From contig JANLFJ010000017.1 of NCBI GenBank assembly GCA_024655825.1, positions 1 to 64,000 of the forward strand: a DNA stretch of 64,000 bases, read 5' to 3'. The notes beneath the pieces were generated by a model, which had not been told where the DNA came from, did no database searches, and saw only the letters and a list, made by a program, of their open reading frames with translations. How positions within the stretch are numbered: position 1 is the stretch's first letter; every line of letters begins with the position of its first letter. Source of the DNA: Peptococcaceae bacterium (GTDB taxonomy: Bacteria > Bacillota > Peptococcia > DRI-13 > PHAD01). The translations under genes were made by a program, and so were the position numbers. This document shows, one piece after another, positions 47,096 to 59,016 of this stretch.

Positions 47096-50000
47096 TCAAG
47101 GAGAGTGTATCTCCACATTTGCCGCCGGAATCCAGACGCCTTCTGTTTCAATGGCAAAGGTATAATAGTCGCCTGTTGAGCTGTCTGTCAAAAGTCGGAT
47201 TGACGCGCCGCCCAAATCGTAGTCATCCGGCACGGTTATACCGCTTGCGGCGCTTATGGCCGCGCCCCCGTCTGCCGTCAGCTTGATTTGCGAAGCTCCG
47301 GAGAATGCGGCGTCTCCGTCAATCCAAAGCCCTTGCCCGGCTGCAATGGTCACATTGGAAGCATCGACCGCAAATCCGCCAAGAATTCCTGCCGGGCCGT
47401 CACAATTCATGCCCAAAACGCTGTTTTGGATTTCTATGCCAATCGACCCCAACATGAATCCGCCGCCGTCTGAGGCAATGGCAACATCGGAATACACGAA
47501 GCGGCACACGGACTGCTCCCCTTCGCCCACATCCGCGCTCAGCGCGTATATTGAACCCATATCGATGCCTTCGCCTCCTGCCGCGTCTATTGCCAAATCC
47601 AGGGTATCAAATGTCAGGCTGTTCGAGGCGTAAATCGCCTTACCTCCTGAAGTGCCGATACGCAGCGAGTCTTCGGTTTTGTCCGTACCGGCAAATCGGG
47701 TGGGACGCTCAATGCGCATGACATTCTGAGCTTCATCTGACGACAATGTAATTTCGAAAGCGCAGTTCCCCACAATGTTGACGGTCAACGGACTGCCGCT
47801 TTCCCCAATATTTATGCTGTCAAAATATTTTTTGCTGAACGAGATGTTCAGATTATCGAAGGTAACGGAGTTTGTCGCGCCGTCAATGTTCACGTATACG
47901 TTGCTGCCTGTTCCGCTGAAGGTCAGCCCGTCTCCCGTAATCGTAAGGACGGGAACGGTAGTTCCGTCAAACGTTTCGACCATTTCGTAGGTATAGCCGG
48001 AGATGCTGCCCACGCTGATATCCTCGGTTACTTCGCCGTTTGTTACGGTAATTCCGCTCTCCGGCAGCGTCGCACCTTTTGGAACGGAACGGTAGTTTGC
48101 CGTATATGTGCGGTTGCCGGTAACGGTGTCTCCCTCAGTCAGCGTCGGGAACCAGCCTGTAAACTCATACCGGAAGTATTCGTTCTCCGCTTTGGTCGGA
48201 TCATCGGGAGGAACGATTACATCGCCGTAATGATAGGTCTGTGTTATGGTAGTCGAGCCGCCCGCAAAGGAACCGCTGCCGGCGTCAAAGGTGATGGTGT
48301 ACTCGTTTTCGACCTGTCTGTACTTCGCGGTAATGGTCATGTCCTGTGTGAATGTCTTCGGGAAAGCTTCCGACCAGCCGTCGAACTCATAATGATAGTT
48401 GGAATTGCCCGATGGAGGTATGGGGTCGCTTATGCTTTCCGAAATATTCGTATCCTCTCCGTATTTGCCGGTAAAGGTTTTTGTATTGGTGCCGTCGGAG
48501 AACTTTCCGTTTCCGGCGCTGACCGTTACGGTATACATCCTCTCGGCCGGCGTGTAGACCGCCGTATAGGTCATATCCTTTTGAACGGTGACGGTATCGG
48601 TCAGGCCGTAGGTATTTCCGTCCTGATCCTTCCAGCCTGTCAGCGTATAGGTGTACTGGTTATCCGCGGCCTTAACAGGGGCGTACGAGGCCAAATTCAG
48701 GCGCGTACCACAAGTGACCCGGAGGGAAACGCTTGTGCTTCCGCCGGGGAACGCGGCTCCCTCTCCGGCGTTGAAGGTGGCGGTGAACTCCTGGCCGGAA
48801 GCGGCGACCCACACCGCGTTCCAGGTCTGGATGCCCTGCTTGTCTTGAGAGTAGTCCACGTCCCAGTGATGGAATTTGTAGAGTACGCCGTCCTTTTGCA
48901 CCGGTTGGATCGTGAGGGCGTTGTTGGCGTTCTGGAAGTCCTCCACATACTTCAGATAATCCGGATATGGAATCATACCGGAGTCGGCTGTGGCGCTGCC
49001 GTCAGCAAAGGTTCCCATATCCGTTTTGAATATGATCCGGCGCTGCGTGAATTCGACAATAAGATTGTAATAGGTATCCTGTGTAGCCGGGGGCAGCCCG
49101 TCATAAGCGTAATCCGCCTCGTCGACGTATCTGTGGCTCCATCCTAAAATCGTACACCCGGGATAGCTCTTTTGGCGCGGGGGCAGAGGAGTCTTGCCGT
49201 AATCGAATAAGAAGGATTCACTTTCATACATTACATCGAAATTCTGCCCATAAGCCGTGTACTGCATCCTGGGATAGTTGAACGTAATGTATTCCCGGAC
49301 AGTGTCATACTCTGCCACGTTGTGGAACATGACGGGCCTTGTTTTCTGATTTTCATTAAATTTTTCGTTGCACTCATCCAGTGTGCCGGTAAATGTATAG
49401 ACCGGCTGCGTTTTGTCGTAACCTGTAAAGGTCAGGTTACATGCCCAGGCACTATAGATATCTAAGTTTGTCAGCGGCTTGTTGCTCGTTGCTGGGTAGC
49501 TGTAATCAATGTACGTGTAATCCCTTCTCATCCAGTCCTTAAACGTGCGTCCCGGACCCGGCGACTGATAGTTTGAGGGAACAGGCGGCGTATCGCCGTT
49601 TTCGGCGGCATATACCTCATAGTGCCACTGCCCGTCGTGGAGGTATATATAGGATATCAGCACCTGCTTCTTCGTCATATTCACCACATAGGTAGCATCC
49701 TTCCAGATGGCTTCATTCCAGTCGCCTACATAACCGGTTACTTCAGCTTCCTGATATCCGAGCAGACCTTCTATGGGGTTGGACCAGGCAGACAGGTCGA
49801 TGGCGCCCGGGACAGTACCCGCAAGCACGAGCTTTTCCGTCTCCCCAACCTTCTCCCCGTTCATATTGACCACATAGGTTGCCGTAACGGGGTTCAGGTT
49901 GACAGTTTTGGGGTCGATGCCGGGATCGATCCATATGAGCTTGATCTCATTATAGGTGTAGCCCTTTTCCCGGCTGCTGAAGCAGAGGTTGTCTCCGCCG

Positions 50001-53000
50001 TAATACACCTGCACCTTTGCGTCCAGCCGCTGGGTGCCTTTCGGAACACTCACGCCGTAATATGTTTTCCCGAAATATTGCGGCTGGACCTGGAGGTGAT
50101 TCTCATCATTCCAATCGATCATCCACGGGTTGGATATTTTGAAATAGAATTTACTGAGCTTGGAATAGTCGCCCTCGACCAACTCTCCGGTGGTGAGGTC
50201 GAGCATTTCGCAGTCCAGCAGGCCGCTGTTGCTGATATAGTAGTCGTTCTGGTTGATAATCACTGTTTTGCCGGCGTTCTTGAATCTGTACAGAACATAC
50301 CGGTTGCCCAGAGTATAGAAAGGAAATTTTTCATCCAGCACGGAAAGCTCCGCCTTTACGCTGAACAGCTCCGACTCGGCAAAGACTTTCAGCTCCAGGT
50401 AGATGCCTACTTCCATGTAGACGCCGCCGTTCATGTTGATGTCGGGGGCGCCGCCGGCCTTGACTAGGTGAAGCTGCAAAAAGCCGTAAAGGTCCATATA
50501 TGCGCCTACTTCTCCCGTAAAGCCGACTCTGCCCAGGGATTCAAGGCCGTAGAAATTGACGCTTACGGTAAGCCTTACGCCGGCCTTGACTCCCAGATAG
50601 CCCGCGCAGTACAGGTCGAAGCTTTGCCTGCCGTCGCCTTCAAGCCCGTACCTGTACGTTTCCAGGTCCTGGCTCGTGCCGCCTCTGATGCCTATGCGGC
50701 TGGCGGATAAGATGGTGCTTTGGGCCGACAGCCCAACCGCAAGATTCAGCCGGACGACAAAGTCGCCCTTCTCTTTAAACTGCAAAACGGGCGCCGGCAT
50801 CTTGACATCCTGCGACTGCTCGAAAATATTGACCTCCACAAGGTCTATGTAGTCGCCCTTCGAGCCCAAAACCTCCCTGATGATTTCGGGGACATCGGAA
50901 TTGTCCTTCGTAAAGCCGTCGATAAGCTTCTGGATTTCAGCGGTGATATCTAAGTACTCCTCGTCTACGTCCACTGTCTTGACAAGGACGTTGAATTCCA
51001 CATCCGTCTGCGAGTAAGCGTCGATCCAGGCATCAAAATAGATCCCCTGTTTGGCATTCAGGCCGGTCTTCGCTCCCGTCGAAAGAGTAATGAACTCCTT
51101 GAAGGTAAAGTCGGCCTTCACCTGGACTTTCTTGATTGTCGCATTGTAGTTGAATTTTATGGTCAGCACGACCCAATTGTTGTCGACCGCGCCGGGGAAA
51201 TTGGTATTTCTGGCCGTGCCGATTGATGCGGTGACGGTTAATCCGGAAACCAGGGCATTGGCGGTAATGGAAAGCTTATCATTGTTTTCTGTGGGCTCGG
51301 CAAATGGCGAGGAGGAACCGGACATGAGTGTCGCCGCCGAACTGGTCACGTCCGCCGACGAAAGCATAGCCGCCAGCGTCTGGCTGTCATTGAGCGCAAG
51401 CGCCAGAAGCCTGGTGAATCTCAGCGTGCCCTCGCTGTTTTTCACGTCCCGCTCAAGCTTCTTTAAATCAATGGAGCTGGCTATGTTCTCCGGATCTACG
51501 CTTTGCTGCAAATAAACGTCAAGCTGCTTATAAATGTCCTCCACGCTGCTGGCTTCGGTAAACAGCATGACGCGCTGCGGGTCTGTTGAATCCGTGTTTA
51601 CAATGCTCAGCACATTGCGGATCTTGGAGTTTTCGTTGAGAATTCCCTGGCCGTTTGAATCAAGCTCGTCAGTTAAGCATATAGTTGTTCCGGCCGCGAT
51701 CCCTTTGTCGTCGGCCAGAGCCTTCGGCAGACTGTAGACGCCGTCGTCAATAACGTTGACCTGGTCCCAGAGAAGATAGACTATGCCATCCACGAATTGA
51801 ACGTCATAGGTTTCGGGCTTTTTAATGCTGAAGGCCATGGTGCGGACTTCTTCTTTTTCATTGTTGAAGCTTAAGCTTTCGTCTTTCAGGGAAAGCTCGT
51901 AGGTGTCGCCGGGAGTGTAAGTGTAGGGCGCCTTGGGTGAAACGGCATAAACGTTTCCGCCCTGACTCATTACGGTAACGTCAGGGATTTCATCTCCGTT
52001 AACCTTATCTTTAATTGTTATGTACTTATCCAGATTGCCGTTGTCGATGGTTTCCGGAGACAAAATTTCGAATGTTATATCATCTTCGCAGTCCGGCAGA
52101 AACTTGACCGAATCGACGTATTCCTTATAGTTATAGTCCTTGTCGGCATAAGATGCGTAAAGAGTCATGCTCTTCGTGATGGGGGCATCGGAATAGAAGG
52201 GTTGGGTCAGACTGCTGTCGGTACACCAGCCCGTGAAGGTGTAGTCGTCCTTGAGGGGGATTGACACATCCGGAAGCTTGCCTCCCCGGGGCACAGAAAC
52301 GGGAGCTATTGCGGTGCCGCCGTTGGTTTCAAAGGAGACTGTCAGAGAATCATCCGAGCCTGAGCCTGAGCCCGAGCCGGAGGAAGAGCCGGTGGCAGGC
52401 ATGGCAGGCTGTTCATCGGCAGGGCTGTTGACCACATTATCCGAAAACCTGTGCAGCATCGCCGCAAGCTCCGCGCGTGTGGCGTTTCCCTGCGGGTCAA
52501 AGAGCATGCCGTTATCCCCCGGTTTGCCTGTGATGACGCCGGTCATGCTGCACCACATGGCGCCTTCCAAAGCCCAATACGGGATTTTGTCCTTGTCGGC
52601 AAAGTCAGAGCCGCCTATTGCTTCGCCGGCGGGTCCCTTTCCGATCAGCCGCGCATATCTAAGAAGAAACACCGCCGCCTGTTCGCGTGTGACTTTATCG
52701 TCCGGCGCAAAACGGTTGCCGCCCACGCCGCCGGTTATACCGTTCGCCGCCGCCCACGCTACAGCTCTGCCGTACCACGAGTCTTCCGGCACATCGGTGA
52801 AAGCGTTGGGCAGACCGGAGGCATCCGGGCTTCCCGCCAGACGATACAGGACCGTGACCAGCATAGCCCGGGACATGGGCATATCGGGACTGAACAGCGG
52901 CGATTCCGTTCCGGTACCGGTCATCAGGCCGCTGGTGTAAACGAAGCCCACATCATCAAAGAACCAGTCGCCGGGCTTCACGTCCCCAAACAGGTTGTCA

Positions 53001-53194
53001 AACTCAATTGTGCCGCCGTTTGCATTGGTGGAAGACTGCCCGGCCGGATTGCCGGCAGTACCGCCTGCAGTCGCAGCGGAAAGCTGTGCGGGTACGGCTG
53101 AACCGCTGCCCGCCAACACATTCACCGGCAGCATGGTGATTGCAAGCATAACGCACAGCAGCAGGCTAAAGACACGTTTTTGCGCCGTCTTCAT
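47096..53194 (-). CDS. Giant SLH-domain surface protein with InlB-type repeats
   Basis: This is a 2032-residue secreted protein. A signal peptide ends near VLAGSG (residue 31). Three SLH domains (about 67-120, 130-182, 196-250) attach it to secondary wall polymer. A Ser/Gly linker (269-280) leads to a Listeria-Bacteroides (InlB B) repeat (about 286-355). A long central region of about 950 residues is unrecognised. Four or more further InlB-type repeats follow (TGWKDQDGN, FDGWSEAFPKT, FTGWFPTLTEGD). The last 250 residues look like a beta-solenoid (GDGLTFSGTGSNVYVNIDGA). Start: AAGGTGG and the signal peptide favour ATG 53194. Likely an adhesin or S-layer-associated protein. Confidence 0.9.
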   Translation of the reverse strand: MKTAQKRVFSLLLCVMLAITMLPVNVLAGSGSAVPAQLSAATAGGTAGNPAGQSSTNANGGTIEFDNLFGDVKPGDWFFDDVGFVYTSGLMTGTGTESPLFSPDMPMSRAMLVTVLYRLAGSPDASGLPNAFTDVPEDSWYGRAVAWAAANGITGGVGGNRFAPDDKVTREQAAVFLLRYARLIGKGPAGEAIGGSDFADKDKIPYWALEGAMWCSMTGVITGKPGDNGMLFDPQGNATRAELAAMLHRFSDNVVNSPADEQPAMPATGSSSGSGSGSGSDDSLTVSFETNGGTAIAPVSVPRGGKLPDVSIPLKDDYTFTGWCTDSSLTQPFYSDAPITKSMTLYASYADKDYNYKEYVDSVKFLPDCEDDITFEILSPETIDNGNLDKYITIKDKVNGDEIPDVTVMSQGGNVYAVSPKAPYTYTPGDTYELSLKDESLSFNNEKEEVRTMAFSIKKPETYDVQFVDGIVYLLWDQVNVIDDGVYSLPKALADDKGIAAGTTICLTDELDSNGQGILNENSKIRNVLSIVNTDSTDPQRVMLFTEASSVEDIYKQLDVYLQQSVDPENIASSIDLKKLERDVKNSEGTLRFTRLLALALNDSQTLAAMLSSADVTSSAATLMSGSSSPFAEPTENNDKLSITANALVSGLTVTASIGTARNTNFPGAVDNNWVVLTIKFNYNATIKKVQVKADFTFKEFITLSTGAKTGLNAKQGIYFDAWIDAYSQTDVEFNVLVKTVDVDEEYLDITAEIQKLIDGFTKDNSDVPEIIREVLGSKGDYIDLVEVNIFEQSQDVKMPAPVLQFKEKGDFVVRLNLAVGLSAQSTILSASRIGIRGGTSQDLETYRYGLEGDGRQSFDLYCAGYLGVKAGVRLTVSVNFYGLESLGRVGFTGEVGAYMDLYGFLQLHLVKAGGAPDINMNGGVYMEVGIYLELKVFAESELFSVKAELSVLDEKFPFYTLGNRYVLYRFKNAGKTVIINQNDYYISNSGLLDCEMLDLTTGELVEGDYSKLSKFYFKISNPWMIDWNDENHLQVQPQYFGKTYYGVSVPKGTQRLDAKVQVYYGGDNLCFSSREKGYTYNEIKLIWIDPGIDPKTVNLNPVTATYVVNMNGEKVGETEKLVLAGTVPGAIDLSAWSNPIEGLLGYQEAEVTGYVGDWNEAIWKDATYVVNMTKKQVLISYIYLHDGQWHYEVYAAENGDTPPVPSNYQSPGPGRTFKDWMRRDYTYIDYSYPATSNKPLTNLDIYSAWACNLTFTGYDKTQPVYTFTGTLDECNEKFNENQKTRPVMFHNVAEYDTVREYITFNYPRMQYTAYGQNFDVMYESESFLFDYGKTPLPPRQKSYPGCTILGWSHRYVDEADYAYDGLPPATQDTYYNLIVEFTQRRIIFKTDMGTFADGSATADSGMIPYPDYLKYVEDFQNANNALTIQPVQKDGVLYKFHHWDVDYSQDKQGIQTWNAVWVAASGQEFTATFNAGEGAAFPGGSTSVSLRVTCGTRLNLASYAPVKAADNQYTYTLTGWKDQDGNTYGLTDTVTVQKDMTYTAVYTPAERMYTVTVSAGNGKFSDGTNTKTFTGKYGEDTNISESISDPIPPSGNSNYHYEFDGWSEAFPKTFTQDMTITAKYRQVENEYTITFDAGSGSFAGGSTTITQTYHYGDVIVPPDDPTKAENEYFRYEFTGWFPTLTEGDTVTGNRTYTANYRSVPKGATLPESGITVTNGEVTEDISVGSISGYTYEMVETFDGTTVPVLTITGDGLTFSGTGSNVYVNIDGATNSVTFDNLNISFSKKYFDSINIGESGSPLTVNIVGNCAFEITLSSDEAQNVMRIERPTRFAGTDKTEDSLRIGTSGGKAIYASNSLTFDTLDLAIDAAGGEGIDMGSIYALSADVGEGEQSVCRFVYSDVAIASDGGGFMLGSIGIEIQNSVLGMNCDGPAGILGGFAVDASNVTIAAGQGLWIDGDAAFSGASQIKLTADGGAAISAASGITVPDDYDLGGASIRLLTDSSTGDYYTFAIETEGVWIPAANVEIHSP

Positions 53195-53251
53195 ATTCTC
53201 ATGACCACCTTGTATTGGACTATGATAAAACAATCATCCTTTGTTTCCATA

Positions 53252-53590
53252 TCATTCTCTTTGCTCCTCACCTGATTTAGGTTTGCGCCGCCGAGCGTCG
53301 CACATGCAGACGCCGATAGGATCGCAGGGCGTCTGCTCCCGGTAAAACCAGCCGCAGCCGCCGCAGTCGCTGGGGGGCGGTTCCCCTGGAACGCCGGGCT
53401 TGCAATTGGAGCAGCTCTCCTGCTCCGCCGTGGCAAAGGGGCGGCCCTCGCCGGTATACTCCGGGTGTTCCTCAAAGTCGGGGTAGGCCGGGTAGCTCTC
53501 GTCAAGCTGCTCGTCGTACTCAAGGTAAACGGGAAAGTCCCGGCCTCCCGTCCGGTACACCTTATACGGTTCCTTTTGCTCAGGGCGCAT
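53252..53590 (-). CDS. Cys-rich small protein of unknown function
   Basis: This is a 112-residue protein, acidic and Tyr/Pro-rich at the N-terminus (VYLEYDEQLDESYPAYPDFE), with nine cysteines in its second half (SCSNCKPGVPGEPPPSDCGG, then CGWFYREQTPCDPIGVCMCD). The spacing of C-x2-C pairs suggests a metal-binding or disulphide-rich fold. There is no signal peptide. GGAGCGTG precedes the ATG. It lies 57 bp upstream of the SLH gene and downstream of the regulator, so it may belong to the same unit. No family recognised. Confidence 0.65.
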   Translation of the reverse strand: MRPEQKEPYKVYRTGGRDFPVYLEYDEQLDESYPAYPDFEEHPEYTGEGRPFATAEQESCSNCKPGVPGEPPPSDCGGCGWFYREQTPCDPIGVCMCDARRRKPKSGEEQRE

Positions 53591-53621
53591 TCTTTCACGC
53601 TCCTTTCCGGGACGGGGATAT

Positions 53622-53663
53622 AAAAAAAACCCCTATGACAGCTTTTCGTTACTATCATAGGGG
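53622..53663 (-). terminator. Terminator of the two-HTH regulator gene
   Basis: On the minus strand CCCCTATGA (53663-53655) pairs with TCATAGGGG (53638-53630), followed by eight T residues. It separates the regulator transcript from the Cys-rich gene and the SLH gene. Confidence 0.88.
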
Positions 53664-53718
53664 AAAATCCATTTTTTAGGGAGTGACTTTTCACCCTCAA
53701 AAAGTCACGTTTTTTTAC

Positions 53719-54900
53719 TCACATAATGCATTTTGCAAGCTCCTCCCGGCCGGATAAATATAGCTTTTCGTAAATCTCCAGCATGATGTTCTTGAGCCTG
53801 CCCACGGAAATGCAGTGCTGCCTGGCAATTTCGGCGTAAGGGACGCGCTGCGCCACAAGCAGGGCGAGGTGATATTCCCGCAGGGTCAGCATAAGCGTGA
53901 TGTTATCCTTCGTGAATTGGTTGTGAAAAGCGATCCAGTTTTTCCAGGTGCGCTCCCATTGCCCAAGAACCGCGTCACGGCAGGCGGGAAACTCCCGTTC
54001 CAGACACTGCTCGATCAGACCTCCCAGCGCGGTAACGACCTCCGCAAAGGGCGTGATAAAGCCGTGGGGCAGGGCGAGGCGCATGGCTTCCAGCAGCCAG
54101 CGCCGGGCCTCGTCGTCGCGTCCGAGACAATGGCAGGCGACGGCGCAGGTCACCCGCAGATAAATATCGGTTGTCGTGAATCCCTGCGGCTGTGCGGACA
54201 GGGTCAGGGCGGTCTGCGCCACGGCCAGCATGGCGTCATACTTATTTAAACAGTGAAAATACTTCGCGCGCAAATAGAGGGCATTCGGCTTCGCCTGTGG
54301 AGCGAGGGCGCTGAAATCCCCTTCCTTCAGCCAGTCTGGGGCCATGTTCGGTGCAATGATGCTCACAGCGGCGGTGGCAAGAGCCTGCTCCGCGAAAGCC
54401 GCCGCACCGCTGCCCTTGTGGACTTCCGCGCATTTTTTAAGATAAGCGTCGATCTCCGTGTATGCGCGGTAATCCCCCAGGCTGATGGCCGCCGCAATCG
54501 TTACCGGGCAGGCGCGAAGCCGCGCCGCGTCGTCCCCGCCAGTCCGTTGATAACAGCGCATCGTCCGCGCAAAATCGCCCCGCAGATAAGAAAGCTCCGC
54601 CTCGTATTGAAGCGACAGCCTTTCCCCGCGCACCGCGTCCAAAATGGCGTCAGGGTTATGTTTGGGCATCGGAACGGTGGTGGCCTCCAGAAGGCGGGCA
54701 AGCTCGTCCGAAAGCGAGTGCCGGGGAGCCGGCTGCTCACGGCGCCGTTTGTCGGCAGGCCGCCCGGCGTACTCCGGTATCAGCCACAGATTGCCCCTTT
54801 TGACAGCGCCCTCGATTTTGTTTTCTGCGCAATACAGGGTTACAATCCGGGTGCCCAGCCCCCATTTCTCCGCGGCCTCCTTCACGGTCAAATAAAGCAT
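53719..54900 (-). CDS. Putative regulator: excisionase-like HTH, helical repeats, LuxR-like HTH
   Basis: This is a 393-residue protein. Residues 1-40 (MLYLTVKEAAEKWGLGTRIV, TLYCAENKIEGAVKRGNLWL) form a helix-turn-helix of the MerR/excisionase DNA-binding type. Residues 90-320 are Ala-rich helical repeats resembling TPRs, as in the MalT/LuxR signalling domain. The C-terminus (VPYAEIARQHCISVGRLKNI, MLEIYEKLYLSGREELAKCI) is a LuxR-type HTH. Two DNA-binding ends in one chain are unusual. The ATG 54900 follows GGAG by 9 nt. A perfect palindrome covers its promoter. It may control the SLH gene downstream. Confidence 0.75.
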   Translation of the reverse strand: MLYLTVKEAAEKWGLGTRIVTLYCAENKIEGAVKRGNLWLIPEYAGRPADKRRREQPAPRHSLSDELARLLEATTVPMPKHNPDAILDAVRGERLSLQYEAELSYLRGDFARTMRCYQRTGGDDAARLRACPVTIAAAISLGDYRAYTEIDAYLKKCAEVHKGSGAAAFAEQALATAAVSIIAPNMAPDWLKEGDFSALAPQAKPNALYLRAKYFHCLNKYDAMLAVAQTALTLSAQPQGFTTTDIYLRVTCAVACHCLGRDDEARRWLLEAMRLALPHGFITPFAEVVTALGGLIEQCLEREFPACRDAVLGQWERTWKNWIAFHNQFTKDNITLMLTLREYHLALLVAQRVPYAEIARQHCISVGRLKNIMLEIYEKLYLSGREELAKCIM

Positions 54901-54935
54901 AACGCCCATCTCCTTCATCCCGTAATTATACAATC

Positions 54936-54971
54936 AATATACTACTTTTATTTGCATATTGCAAATAAAAG
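54936..54971 (-). promoter_or_regulatory. Promoter and palindromic operator of the regulator gene
   Basis: CTTTTATTTGC (54945-54955) and GCAAATAAAAG (54961-54971) form an 11-bp perfect inverted repeat with a 5-nt centre. It overlaps a possible minus-strand promoter (TTGCAA at 54964-54959, TATATT at 54941-54936, 17-bp spacer). Autoregulation by the HTH protein would fit. Confidence 0.6.
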
Positions 54972-55007
54972 AAATATACAAGAGTCAATCTAAAATTGAA
55001 AATAGCG

Positions 55008-55057
55008 GATTAAAAAGACAGGAAGCGCCAAACGATGCAACGCCTGTCTTTTTAATC
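55008..55057. repeat. 15-bp perfect inverted repeat with 20-nt loop
   Basis: GATTAAAAAGACAGG (55008-55022) and CCTGTCTTTTTAATC (55043-55057) match exactly as inverted repeats. No gene ends here on the plus strand, so a terminator role is unexplained; it could be the end of a mobile element or a terminator left by a lost gene. Confidence 0.6.
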
Positions 55058-55128
55058 GGGTCTGCCTAGTTCATGAAGAGTGATTTGCATCCTTGCAACC
55101 TTCCCGAAGCTTTGCGGAGCGAAGTGTA

Positions 55129-55301
55129 ACCAAGTGGGCTAACTTTGCGGCATGGCGGGGTTAGGGATCGGCGGAAAGTATACCATGTTGGCTAACTTTC
55201 ACGCAGTTTGCGGCAGGCGGAACTTGCACCAACATGGCTCACCTTTGGCGCTTTCAAAATTTGAATAAATGAGACTTAAACCAAGATGGCTCAACTTCCG
55301 C
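55129..55301 (+). repeat. Four degenerate direct repeats, iteron-like
   Basis: Four copies of ACCAnnnTGGCT followed by (A/C)A(A/C)(C/T)TT begin at 55129, 55182, 55228 and 55280, spaced 53, 46 and 52 bp. The 22-bp units match at 12-18 positions. They occupy the gap between the regulator and the recombinase genes. The remainder of the 0.9-kb gap (54901-55839) has no gene I can support; two short plus-strand frames (55286-55570, 55557-55832) are doubtful. Confidence 0.65.
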
Positions 55302-55839
55302 AAAGTCATGGAAGTATGAGCAAAAACAACAAAAATCCATTCTGCAAATCAGCTAAGGGATACCGAGCGGCAATCGCCCGTTTCTGCCGCCTGTGTGCCC
55401 TTGTGTCGCATTTTGGTGATGGGTATGGCATCGTAACACCTGCGGACATGATACCGCCCATGTCGAGGCTTTGTGAAGGGGCTAAAAAAAGGGTGAAGCC
55501 GATTTTTAGACAGAGGTATTATAGCGCTGATTCGGAGGTGAACCATACTGCCGAAAATGAAGCAGGTTAAAGGAGCGGGGTCGCAGAGCGCCCCCACTCC
55601 GGCGAACATCGCCCCGCAATGCGGGTCGGAGGGCATTTTTCATCGGGGTCAGAAATTGCCCCTTGGGGTCGGCTTCGGAGTCGTGCAACGAAAAAATGCC
55701 GCATTTACCGCAGAAAAAGGAAGTCCAAAGCGGGGTCACAGCCGGAGTTGTATGTTTTTCTCCTGTTATTGCCTGTTGAGAATGCGACACATTTATAGAC
55801 GAAAATTCAAAATATTATCAAGAAAGGAATAATGAAGTC

Positions 55840-56250
55840 ATGAAGCCACAGCAGAATTGTATAACCGCTTACGTCTTTCCGAAATACATTTTTCTGCTCC
55901 CGGATGGACATCCAAGCAGGCCAAAAATCGAGGAACTGTTTAAAAATAAGGGCATACGGAAGCATCGGTTATGGGGAAGAAAAACCAAAAAGGAATTTCA
56001 GCACTACATCGAAACCGGCATCTGGGGCAGCTATGAAACGGCGGGAATCAGGGACAAAATTTTCAACGGGAAACCGATTCCGCTGTTCGAGGATACGGAA
56101 TTAAAGGAGCAGACCGACAGCATCTGCCTTGAACGGAACATGATTGTTAGCGGGAAAAAGTTCGCCGTACGCTCGGTGTTCCCCAGGGCAGCCGCAGCAT
56201 TACCCACAGAAAAGCTCCTCTCCTTGATCGATAAGGAACAGGAAAAATGA
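55840..56250 (+). CDS. Small ORF upstream of the serine recombinase
   Basis: This is a 136-residue protein of unknown function: QNCITAYVFPKYIFLLPDGH near the start, GIRKHRLWGRKTKKEFQHYI in the middle and a helical C-terminus (AAALPTEKLLSLIDKEQEK). The AAAGGA upstream is placed better for a tiny frame (ATG AAG TCA TGA at 55831-55842) whose stop overlaps this ATG, so translation may be coupled to it. The gene lies 120 bp before the recombinase in the same direction and probably belongs to that mobile element. Confidence 0.65.
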   Translation: MKPQQNCITAYVFPKYIFLLPDGHPSRPKIEELFKNKGIRKHRLWGRKTKKEFQHYIETGIWGSYETAGIRDKIFNGKPIPLFEDTELKEQTDSICLERNMIVSGKKFAVRSVFPRAAAALPTEKLLSLIDKEQEK

Positions 56251-56304
56251 GCGAAATTCTTTCTCAAAATTCAGTAGACTTCCGGCAAACTCTTCGGTAT
56301 GCTT

Positions 56305-56330
56305 GGGATTGCGGAGCAATCCGCAGTCCC
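56305..56330 (+). repeat. Hairpin before the recombinase gene
   Basis: GGGATTGCGG (56305-56314) pairs with CCGCAGTCCC (56321-56330), one G-U pair, 40 nt before the recombinase ATG. No T-run follows. It could be a leader structure, a binding site or part of an attachment site. Confidence 0.5.
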
Positions 56331-56370
56331 AACATTCCGTATCGGTTTGCCAAACGAAAAGGAGGTATTT

Positions 56371-58038
56371 ATGAAACAGGCAAACCAAAAATACACTATT
56401 TTATATGCCAGGCTCAGCCAGGAGGACGACCGGGAAGGAGAATCAAACAGCATTCAGAATCAAAGGCTGATGCTGGAGAAATACGCTGCCGATAACGGCT
56501 TTGAAAACATTCTCTTCCTTTCTGACGATGGCTGCAGCGGCACAAACTTCAACCGCCCTGCGTGGAAACAGCTGATGAAGATGGTGGAAAATGATCAAGT
56601 GGCGACGATTATCGTCAAGGACATGTCCCGTCTCGGCAGAGATTATTTGCTGGTCGGGCAGTACACCGAGATGATATTCCCCAGTTACGGAGTCCGTTTC
56701 ATCGCCGTCAACAACAATGTGGACAGTCTCTACGGCGGCGATAACGATTTCACCCCTTTTGTGAACCTGTTCAACGATTTCTATGCCAAGGACACCAGCC
56801 GGAAAATCCGGGCGGTCAAGAAAGCGCAGGCCGAACGGGGCGAACGTGTGGCGACCAGAGCGCCCTATGGCTACAAGAAGGATGAGAACAATCCCAAAAG
56901 TAGAATCGTTCCCGATGAGGATGCCGCACCGGTTGTTCAGAGGATATTCAGCCTCTGCGTCGGAGGGAAGGGCCCTACTCAGATTGCCAAGCAGCTAAAA
57001 AGTGAGCAGGTGTTCACACCCGGTTATTATTACTACAGCAAGACCGGCGTCCTTCTGACCAACGTTGATGTAACCAGACCTTATGACTGGAACAGCAGAT
57101 CTGTCGCCGACATTTTAGAGGATGAAGTCTATCTCGGGCACACTATCAGCCTAAAGTACACCACGGTATCCTACAAGAATAAGAAACGGATCAAGCGTCC
57201 CGAATCCGATCAGCTTCGGTTTGAAAACACTCACGAACCGCTGGTGACGAAGGAAACATGGGATATCGTTCAGGATATCCGAAAGCGAAAAAGGCGCAGG
57301 GCAAACATGGCTGAGCAGGATATGTTCTCAGGGCTGGTTCGCTGCATCGATTGCGGAGAAAAGATGATTCTCCATCGGGCGCACACCATGGCCGCTGTGA
57401 AAAACAATTTTATGTGTTCCACCTATAGGAAACGCGGCAAGGAAAAGTGTAGCGCACACTATCTTCGGGAAGTCCATCTGGCGGCGATCGTTCTCGATGA
57501 TTTACTGAGAGTAACCCACTTCGCACGGCAGCAGGAGGCGTTATTCATCCAGTACATCAATCGAAAAAATAATGCCGAAACCCGACGTGAGATTGAAAGG
57601 CTCCAAAGAGAACTGGAATTAATGCGACGGAGGGACACGGAACTCAGCACCTTGTTCAAACGGCTATATGAGGACAATGTGCTTGGAAGAGTGACAAATG
57701 AGCAGTTCAGGATGCTGTCTTGTGACTACAACGCAGAGCAAAAAAGCCTGAAGGAGCGAATCCCTCAAACTGCGGAACGGATCGAAGAACTGCAAGCATC
57801 CATCTCCAATGTCACTCGATTTATCGATAAGGCGAAACGGTACACCGAGATAAACGAGCTAAATGGAGAGCTGCTCAATATCTTTATCGAGAAGATTGAG
57901 GTCGGTGAGCGAGCAGAGCGGTACTCCAGAACAGCGGAGCAGCAAATCATTATTCACTACCGTGACATCGGCGTCGTCGGCGCATTTGCTGAAGAAGCCG
58001 AGAAAATAGCCGAGCAGCGGCAAAGGCAGACAGCCTAA
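56371..58038 (+). CDS. Large serine recombinase (TndX/TnpX-like)
   Basis: This 555-residue site-specific recombinase has a resolvase catalytic domain (residues 8-160) with the active Ser in TILYARLSQEDDREGES and the arginines of KDMSRLGRDYLLVGQYTEMI, and a Recombinase domain (RAPYGYKKDENNP, GPTQIAKQLKSE). A zinc ribbon follows (GLVRCIDCGEKM, MCSTYRKRGKEKCSAHYLRE), then a coiled coil (ETRREIERLQRELELMRRRD). Such enzymes excise and insert elements through short att sites with a central dinucleotide. AAAAGGAGG sets ATG 56371; the frame opens at 56299. It lies at the right end of the accessory island. Confidence 0.93.
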   Translation: MKQANQKYTILYARLSQEDDREGESNSIQNQRLMLEKYAADNGFENILFLSDDGCSGTNFNRPAWKQLMKMVENDQVATIIVKDMSRLGRDYLLVGQYTEMIFPSYGVRFIAVNNNVDSLYGGDNDFTPFVNLFNDFYAKDTSRKIRAVKKAQAERGERVATRAPYGYKKDENNPKSRIVPDEDAAPVVQRIFSLCVGGKGPTQIAKQLKSEQVFTPGYYYYSKTGVLLTNVDVTRPYDWNSRSVADILEDEVYLGHTISLKYTTVSYKNKKRIKRPESDQLRFENTHEPLVTKETWDIVQDIRKRKRRRANMAEQDMFSGLVRCIDCGEKMILHRAHTMAAVKNNFMCSTYRKRGKEKCSAHYLREVHLAAIVLDDLLRVTHFARQQEALFIQYINRKNNAETRREIERLQRELELMRRRDTELSTLFKRLYEDNVLGRVTNEQFRMLSCDYNAEQKSLKERIPQTAERIEELQASISNVTRFIDKAKRYTEINELNGELLNIFIEKIEVGERAERYSRTAEQQIIIHYRDIGVVGAFAEEAEKIAEQRQRQTA

Positions 58039-58052
58039 TTTACTGTCTGCCT
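58024..58052 (+). terminator. Hairpin at the recombinase stop codon
   Basis: AGGCAGACAG (58024-58033) and CTGTCTGCCT (58043-58052) form a 10-bp stem spanning the stop codon. No T-run follows, so termination may rely on the hairpin at 58091. Confidence 0.6.
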
Positions 58053-58060
58053 CACCCAAT

Positions 58061-58110
58061 ATCCATGGTTCATAAAATGTCCCTGTGGAAAGCCGCCTAA
58101 ACCGCGGCTG
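58061..58110. repeat. Partial relative of the two-hairpin element, copy C (right island edge)
   Basis: CCATGGTTCA, GGAA and CCGCCTAA occur here in the same order and orientation, and at similar spacing, as in the left part of copy B (46908-46948), but the conserved core is missing. The hairpin AGCCGC-GCGGCT (58091-58109) is followed by TTTTTCTTTTC and can end the recombinase transcript. The similarity is weaker than between A and B and could be partly chance. Confidence 0.4.
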
Positions 58111-58173
58111 TTTTTCTTTTCTTTATCACCGGCCATAAACTCGTTAACTTAAACTGTTTAAATGATTTTCTGT

Positions 58174-59016
58174 TTATTTCATAAACCTGTTGTACAGCTC
58201 TCTTTTGGAGATACCAATCTCTTTGGCTATTTTTTTTACAGCATCCTTTTTATTTACGCCTTTCCCAGCAAGGATTTCCATTTCTCTTTCTACTTGTTCC
58301 CAGGAAGGCGGCACCGCCAGTCCGGGCGGCCTGCCGGCAACAACCAGGGTAATCTCCCCTTTTGTTCCTGTTTTATCGTAATAGGCCAGCACTTCGCTGA
58401 GCGTCCCTCTGTGGTATTCCTCGTATCGCTTGGTGAGCTCCCGGGCCACGCAGCACTGCCTGTCCCCACACGCTTCCAGTATGTCCTGCAAAGTCCTGAC
58501 CAGCCGGCGGGGGCTTTCAAAAAAAACCATGGTCCTGCGTTCTTCCCTCATGCCCTCCAGGGTTGTTTTTCTCGCCTTTTTATCCCGTGGAAAAAATCCG
58601 CCGAAAACGAAGGAAGCCGTTTCCAGCCCGGAGGCCACCAGCCCCGTCAGCAGGGCCGACGGTCCGGGAATAACAGATACCGGTATCCCCAGCCTGATGC
58701 ACTCCCGGACCAGATCGTTTCCCGGATCGGATATGCCGGGCATTCCCGCATCGGAGACAAGCGCAACAGATTTGCCTTCGGACAGCGCATTAATGAGAAC
58801 GGGACCTTTTTCTTGTTTATTGTGTTCAAAATAGCTGGTAACCGGCTTTTGTATAGAAAAATGAGATAAGAGCTTCCGGGTTTGCCTCGTGTCCTCGGCG
58901 GCAATTAAATCGACTTTGTTTAATGTATCCAGGGCGCGCAGGGTGATGTCGTTCATATTGCCGATTGGCGTTCCCACCAGGTACAGCATACCGCGCCCTT
59001 CATTTTCCACCCTCAT
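58174..59016 (-). CDS. rsmI: 16S rRNA (cytidine-1402-2'-O)-methyltransferase RsmI
   Basis: RsmI methylates the ribose of C1402 in the decoding centre. The 280-residue protein has the family's LYLVGTPIGNMNDITLRALD, IAAEDTRQTRKLL, ALVSDAGMPGISDPGN and the proline-rich IPVSVIPGPSALLTGLVASG. The ATG at 59016 overlaps the end of the upstream methyltransferase gene by 17 bp; ATG 58989 (MLYLVGT) is an equally good start. In most Firmicutes abrB follows rsmI; here the island begins instead. Confidence 0.94.
   Translation of the reverse strand: MRVENEGRGMLYLVGTPIGNMNDITLRALDTLNKVDLIAAEDTRQTRKLLSHFSIQKPVTSYFEHNKQEKGPVLINALSEGKSVALVSDAGMPGISDPGNDLVRECIRLGIPVSVIPGPSALLTGLVASGLETASFVFGGFFPRDKKARKTTLEGMREERRTMVFFESPRRLVRTLQDILEACGDRQCCVARELTKRYEEYHRGTLSEVLAYYDKTGTKGEITLVVAGRPPGLAVPPSWEQVEREMEILAGKGVNKKDAVKKIAKEIGISKRELYNRFMK

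Follow-up and report, generated by a model that had tools for sequence, protein, structure and literature searches.

Upstream of a large serine recombinase gene in Peptococcaceae bacterium (assembly GCA_024655825.1), the first 64,000 nucleotides of contig JANLFJ010000017.1, hereafter called the window, carry four regularly spaced degenerate repeats. What kind of protein would such an array serve, and what would it do for the element on which it lies? The earlier note on this DNA, made from the sequence alone, proposed cooperative binding by a single protein and named iterons, accessory sites of the recombinase and the binding array of a regulator as candidates. Our analysis points elsewhere. 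We consider it probable (roughly 0.7) that the array is a parC-type centromere, composed of four dyad sites for the ParR-like protein of a parMRC system of clostridial integrative conjugative elements (ICEs) with MobP3 relaxases, and that the window holds an orphan copy used in trans.

The window array is a chain of four dyads

All four units (55129, 55182, 55228 and 55280) were found where they had been placed, reading in order ACCAAGTGGGCT (one mismatch), ACCATGTTGGCT, ACCAACATGGCT and ACCAAGATGGCT, and the periodicity of 46-53 bp corresponds to measured intervals of 53, 46 and 52 bp. The idea that the units lie five helical turns apart on one face of DNA holds for units 1-2 (53 bp, 5.05 turns) and 3-4 (52 bp, 4.95 turns), but not for units 2-3 (46 bp, 4.38 turns). 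This middle interval is 51 bp in four related four-unit arrays and again 46 bp in a second copy of the array in the same genome.

A repeat search in the window returned paired stretches longer than the 12-mer originally noted. Each unit is a longer dyad, approximately GAAAGTnnACCAwswTGGCTcACTTTC in the window, and alignment of the units gives a core of AAGT-3-CCA-3-TGG-3-ACTT, extending to GAAAGT...ACTTTC. Across 26 loci and 53 distinct units, the CCA and TGG bases are kept in 52-53 units, with the leading T of TGG as the exception (45 of 53); the CTnA to the right of TGG is kept in 50-53. With up to two mismatches, the 12-mer ACCAnnnTGGCT occurs 157 times in the window against 170 expected, that is, with no enrichment. 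The window also has a chain of four units, spaced by 40-60 bp and each with no more than one mismatch, whereas among 100 first-order Markov sequences as long as the window the longest chain was one unit in 94 cases and two in the other 6, never more. Thus, the 12-mer alone is unremarkable, and it is the chain of four that sets the array apart. A search for structured RNA at positions 53000-58500 gave no Rfam match at E-values up to 1.

Similar arrays in this and other genomes

Genome-wide, ACCANNNTGGCTNACTTT with no more than one mismatch is found at just nine places, seven of them inside two arrays. The motif is therefore not the common dispersed repeat that the earlier note had set against its own proposal. 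The second array, on contig C4, also has four units (109735, 109787, 109833 and 109884); it lies behind an AAA ATPase gene (AAA_25) and ahead of a large serine recombinase gene whose product is 35% identical to that of the window. The two regions align by blastn at 77% identity (positions 2-669 of a 691-base query), from about 55081, the left limit of similarity, through the array and a conserved non-coding box to about 55748; the ATPase gene preceding the array in C4 is absent from the window.

A two-unit pattern matched 31 stretches in the GTDB representatives, and 18 of them were accepted on the basis of spacing, unit extent and gene context. The other 13 (L038, L039, L040, L046, L048, L050, L051, L053, L055, L056, L060, L062 and L064) were judged to be chance matches or unrelated repeats; L060 is the least certain exclusion, and the unit matrix gives nothing above 8 in it. 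One of three IMG/VR stretches was accepted, the remaining two, from phage contigs (L030, 2028-2096; L032, 13460-13525), being a 26-bp tandem repeat that contains ACCAACATGGCTGACC and looks unrelated to arrays spaced by 52 bp. Together, these scans yielded 19 further arrays. The scan with the unit matrix covered 26 loci with 39 intervals between units, of which 36 measure 51-53 bp; two are 46 bp (window and C4) and one is 103 bp (L054, where the third unit is not recognisable). DNA similarity searches found no match in a plasmid collection and a single match in a phage collection, confined to the box.

In ICEs the array adjoins parM-parR

Thirteen of the 19 further arrays have two units and reside in ICEs. 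At all 13 of these pattern-found loci the array begins where a small ParR-like gene ends, at its stop codon, and at 12 an actin-like parM precedes parR; at the other (L061) the sequence ends just before parR. Downstream of the array, as far as the loci extend, come the box, mobC, a relaxase gene and more, as illustrated by L031, with model matches to DUF3846, DUF6103, a MobP3 relaxase, a DUF3991/Toprim protein and a type IV secretion system coupling protein. No relative of the window recombinase was found in the stretches read around these 13 arrays, and no RepA-like ATPase adjoins the ICE arrays.

The ICE ParM has ALP_N and MreB-like_C domains scoring above the cut-off and is similar to CBg-ParM and Cbc-ParM. 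The ParR-like gene, about 90-97 codons long, lies directly behind parM. The N-terminal half of its product aligns with proteins encoded behind two distant ParMs (hhalign 86% and 58%), and the protein combines a strand-helix-helix pattern with a conserved C-terminal LPxSLIHALEEL tail, which we take to be what a ribbon-helix-helix ParR with a ParM-binding tail should look like. We infer that the small ICE protein is a genuine ParR for which the units would be the binding sites. MobC was also considered as the array binder and rejected: its profile does not align with ParR, and mobC loci devoid of parM and parR have no array.

The window units fit the ICE sites well. On a matrix built exclusively from 24 ICE units of 18 loci, units 3 (55219-55247), 4 (55271-55299) and 2 (55173-55201), all on the forward strand, score 35.5, 31.4 and 30.6, and unit 1 (55120-55148, same strand), the weakest fit, in which TGG reads GGG, scores 18.1. 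The best site outside the array in the entire 64 kb reaches 6.2.

Searches independent of the motif link the array to parR

A search with the ParR protein found matches in one of 46 genomes of the class (G002) and five of 398 genomes of the phylum, and at each of the six ParR-found loci two units stand at the stop codon of parR; two of these genomes (G131 and G150) show identical DNA. In L102, where ParR is 57% identical, the units have diverged. They stand in the usual place (1774-1850), read CCAAGTGGGTATACTT and AAGTATACCCTGATGGTTCAACTT and are 51 bp apart, possibly a case of site and protein changing together.

A search with MobC recovered 14 loci in 12 of 398 genomes. Those with parM-parR have the array in five of five cases (in L152 and L153 it came into view only in longer stretches), and these are the same five genomes as in the ParR search. 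Among mobC loci without parM and parR (L144-L151), none of eight has a unit above the threshold in the 7.6-8.1 kb upstream, and six of the eight retain both box and relaxase. L137, with 648 bp upstream of mobC, is too short to judge and stands outside this count; two IMG/VR mobC loci without parM-parR have no units within 4-kb flanks. The contrast between six of six ParR-found loci and none of eight loci lacking parM-parR corresponds to a one-sided exact probability of 1/3003, a value that is too small since the genomes are related (G131 and G150). In G147 the two DUF6103 genes, which elsewhere stand on either side of the cassette, are direct neighbours, the layout expected if parM, parR and the array move in and out as one piece. 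A ParM search added six loci with distant ParMs, none of which has such units.

These searches, made independently of the motif, indicate that the array tracks parR and not mobC, the relaxase, the box or the recombinase. Since in ICEs it is present or absent together with parR, it has the behaviour of the parC centromere belonging to a parMRC cassette of ICEs.

Mobilizable-type elements carry the array without parM-parR

Eight array loci, namely the window, L021, L049, L052, L054, L059, L067 and L068, are of a different, mobilizable type, a label that rests on the recombinase, the box and, in some, mobC (in the stretches read of L068 and L054 there was no recombinase match). None of the eight gave a match to parM or parR in the stretches read, which for the window array means within 13 kb. 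Six of them show four recognisable units, L054 shows three and L059 two.

In six of the eight the array is located behind a common ATPase gene, and in L059 behind that of another AAA ATPase (27.5% identical over 189 residues); the window has none. This position might suggest iterons or origin sites serving the RepA-like ATPase of mobilizable elements. However, both the ICE arrays and the window array do without such an ATPase alongside. The element in L070 has the ATPase (86% identical), the box, mobC, a member of the same 136-residue protein family as the window (47%) and a recombinase 80% identical to that of the window, yet it has no array. Moreover, only two of 13 genome loci with relatives of the ATPase have units (C4 and the locus in the genome of L049, both of the array type already known), as do none of 14 IMG/VR loci. 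We therefore regard iterons, one of the candidates named at the outset, as very unlikely.

The two remaining candidates of the earlier note, recombinase accessory sites and an operator array for the regulator encoded at 53719, draw on the proximity of both genes to the window array. The recombinase fares poorly, because no relative of it was found in the stretches read at the 13 ICE arrays, the two arrays of this one genome are accompanied by recombinases just 35% identical, and the close recombinase of L070 has no array beside it. The regulator has no gene family in common with the other 21 loci compared. Arrays thus exist without relatives of either gene, and this explanation is the least credible of those considered. 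What does stand from the first interpretation is its general part, since the sequence comparison supports an array made up of sites of a protein-binding type and belonging to a mobile element.

Could the same ParR site serve transfer instead? Array-bound ParR and ParM would then bring the element to the ICE relaxosome and coupling protein. The array is near the box, a candidate origin of transfer (oriT), and mobC in many loci, and in plasmid R1 ParM and ParR are reported to promote conjugation, stimulating the relaxase and contacting the coupling protein (PMC4949242). Against this, L049 has four units with no box match, L070 has box and mobC with no array, and in ICEs several hundred bases separate array and box, with other genes intervening in most loci. 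A role in transfer therefore seems unlikely, though better placed than the explanations above. The same two loci suggest that the array forms an independent module on mobilizable-type elements. Four further loci (L033, L034, L035 and L037), which have the box but either lack these genes or have other mobC and relaxase genes, contain no units.

In summary, sequence comparison shows the array, its dyad, its joint presence and absence with parR in ICEs, its occurrence on mobilizable-type elements lacking parR and how the window units fit the ICE matrix.

Other features of the window element

The box lies downstream of the array at 55537-55636. It was detected by blastn in 18 of the 22 loci compared, and also occurs in L070 and other loci that have no array. 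The region 55537-55748 contains GC-rich inverted segments, is common to ICEs and mobilizable-type elements and usually lies shortly before mobC; by this position in relatives, the box is a candidate oriT for MobP3-family elements. Next comes a gene for a 136-residue protein of unassigned function (55840-56250, forward strand), which has no Pfam, NCBIfam or PHROG match and also precedes the recombinase in L049, L052 and L070. The element carries a site-specific recombinase of its own, a large serine recombinase (56371-58038, forward strand) with Resolvase, Recombinase, DUF4368 and zinc ribbon domains; its start was set at 56371, behind AAGGAGG, within a longest open reading frame beginning at 56299. 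The approximate right end of the element is at 58078-58101, where DNA similarity to L049, L052 and L070 ends. Here the four related elements have CCATGGTTCA.....TGTCCCT in common and then diverge, so that this segment is likely the attachment-site half next to the recombinase. A search for an empty site by way of rsmI found no match in one genome of the same family, and elsewhere only 65-70% identity.

To the left of the similarity limit, a perfect 15-nt inverted repeat (GATTAAAAAGACAGG ... CCTGTCTTTTTAATC) spans 55008-55057. The gene at 53719-54933, which is read away from the array, encodes a 404-residue protein with an excisionase-like N-terminal helix-turn-helix and a weak MalT-TPR match; immediately upstream of its start is a 19-nt inverted repeat (54938-54978). 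Farther left, on the minus strand, 47096-53233 encodes a surface protein of 2045 codons with S-layer-homology and Listeria-Bacteroides-repeat matches.

Discussion

How might an element without parM-parR make use of a centromere? By analogy to SGI1, we propose that the window array employs the ParMR of an ICE in trans, to the benefit of the small element. When this element is excised or under mobilization in a cell that also holds an ICE, the ICE ParR would load onto the units of its array, and ParM filaments would then segregate it, preventing its loss before re-integration. The extra sites, four instead of two, may help the element compete for ParR. Whether this extends to a general strategy, in which clostridial mobilizable elements carry an amplified four-site copy of the two-site ICE parC and pirate actin-based segregation, perhaps outcompeting the ICE itself, seems to us evenly balanced.

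Several observations weigh against the centromere interpretation. On the side of the protein, the ParR-like sequence matches no Pfam or NCBIfam family (a Pfam search at lax thresholds gave no credible match either), its AlphaFold monomer is poor (predicted local distance difference test score, pLDDT, 71.5) and a profile search of the PDB returned nothing relevant. On the side of the DNA, the 46-bp middle spacing of the window and C4 arrays is out of phase with other arrays, and in the ICE arrays the first unit overlaps the stop codon of parR, so that its conservation may be partly coding. Finally, the helper is rarely at hand. Among seven genomes with array-bearing mobilizable-type elements, several of which are metagenome assemblies, one (G065) has both ParR and MobP3, and searches of the window genome matched neither this ParR nor this ParM nor a MobP3 relaxase. 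This distribution fits an integrated element awaiting its helper, and equally a relic.

A relic would be an array inherited from the ancestor of the element and of no present function in this host. Besides the missing helper, it would fit that the window element is without the ATPase that its relatives have. On the other hand, this genome keeps two four-unit copies, and units are more similar than spacers in all 15 pairs of mobilizable-type arrays (and in 100 of 105 ICE pairs), a comparison biased by units picked with the matrix and by non-independent pairs. A relic thus appears improbable, to about the same degree as a role in transfer, and a parC-type site used in trans remains our preferred explanation.

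If correct, this explanation offers a signature, dyads of 25-29 bp every ~52 bp, for finding both the ICE cassette and those elements that have copied from it. A further implication is that ParM genes described as chromosomal may in some cases be part of integrated elements.

Comparison with known systems

A close parallel is SGI1, whose parS-like sites bind the IncC ParB and stabilise SGI1 (PMC10954446). It too is an integrative mobilizable element bearing centromere sites of its helper (two direct repeats, 22-bp inverted repeats), with partition genes of its own not used. The difference is that SGI1 and IncC involve a type I ParAB plasmid system in Gammaproteobacteria, whereas here the system would be a type II ParMR of ICEs in Firmicutes, known from sequence evidence only.

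The ICE cassette itself resembles srpMRC of SXT/R391. There, too, an ICE combines an actin-like ParM with a small ParR-type protein and a centromere containing repeats, and SrpR binding and plasmid stabilization have been demonstrated (PMC4489591); unlike srpMRC, the present cassette has two 25-29 bp dyads behind parR. In Clostridium botulinum Bf, the chromosomal Cb-cParCMR likewise has a parC of palindromic repeats adjoining parM-parR, with ParR binding documented by electrophoretic mobility shift assay (PMC12270681). Its palindromic repeats number three, however; parC is placed ahead of the genes in the text and behind cParR in the figure legend, and no link to an ICE is stated in the part available. 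The ParMRC systems of C. perfringens conjugative plasmids share spaced repeats, a ribbon-helix-helix ParR and recognition within the same family, the ParRs binding family-specific repeats (PMC9426499), but have parC upstream of parM, with four 17-bp direct repeats in pCW3.

The kind of system is therefore already known. Among the matches listed from the open-licence literature, none has a title or abstract that reports a mobilizable element with a parMRC site, and what would be new, as judged from those matches, is the copying of a type II centromere onto mobilizable elements. If true, this would join two themes, ICE partition by a ParMRC-type system and centromere mimicry, in Firmicutes and on an actin basis.
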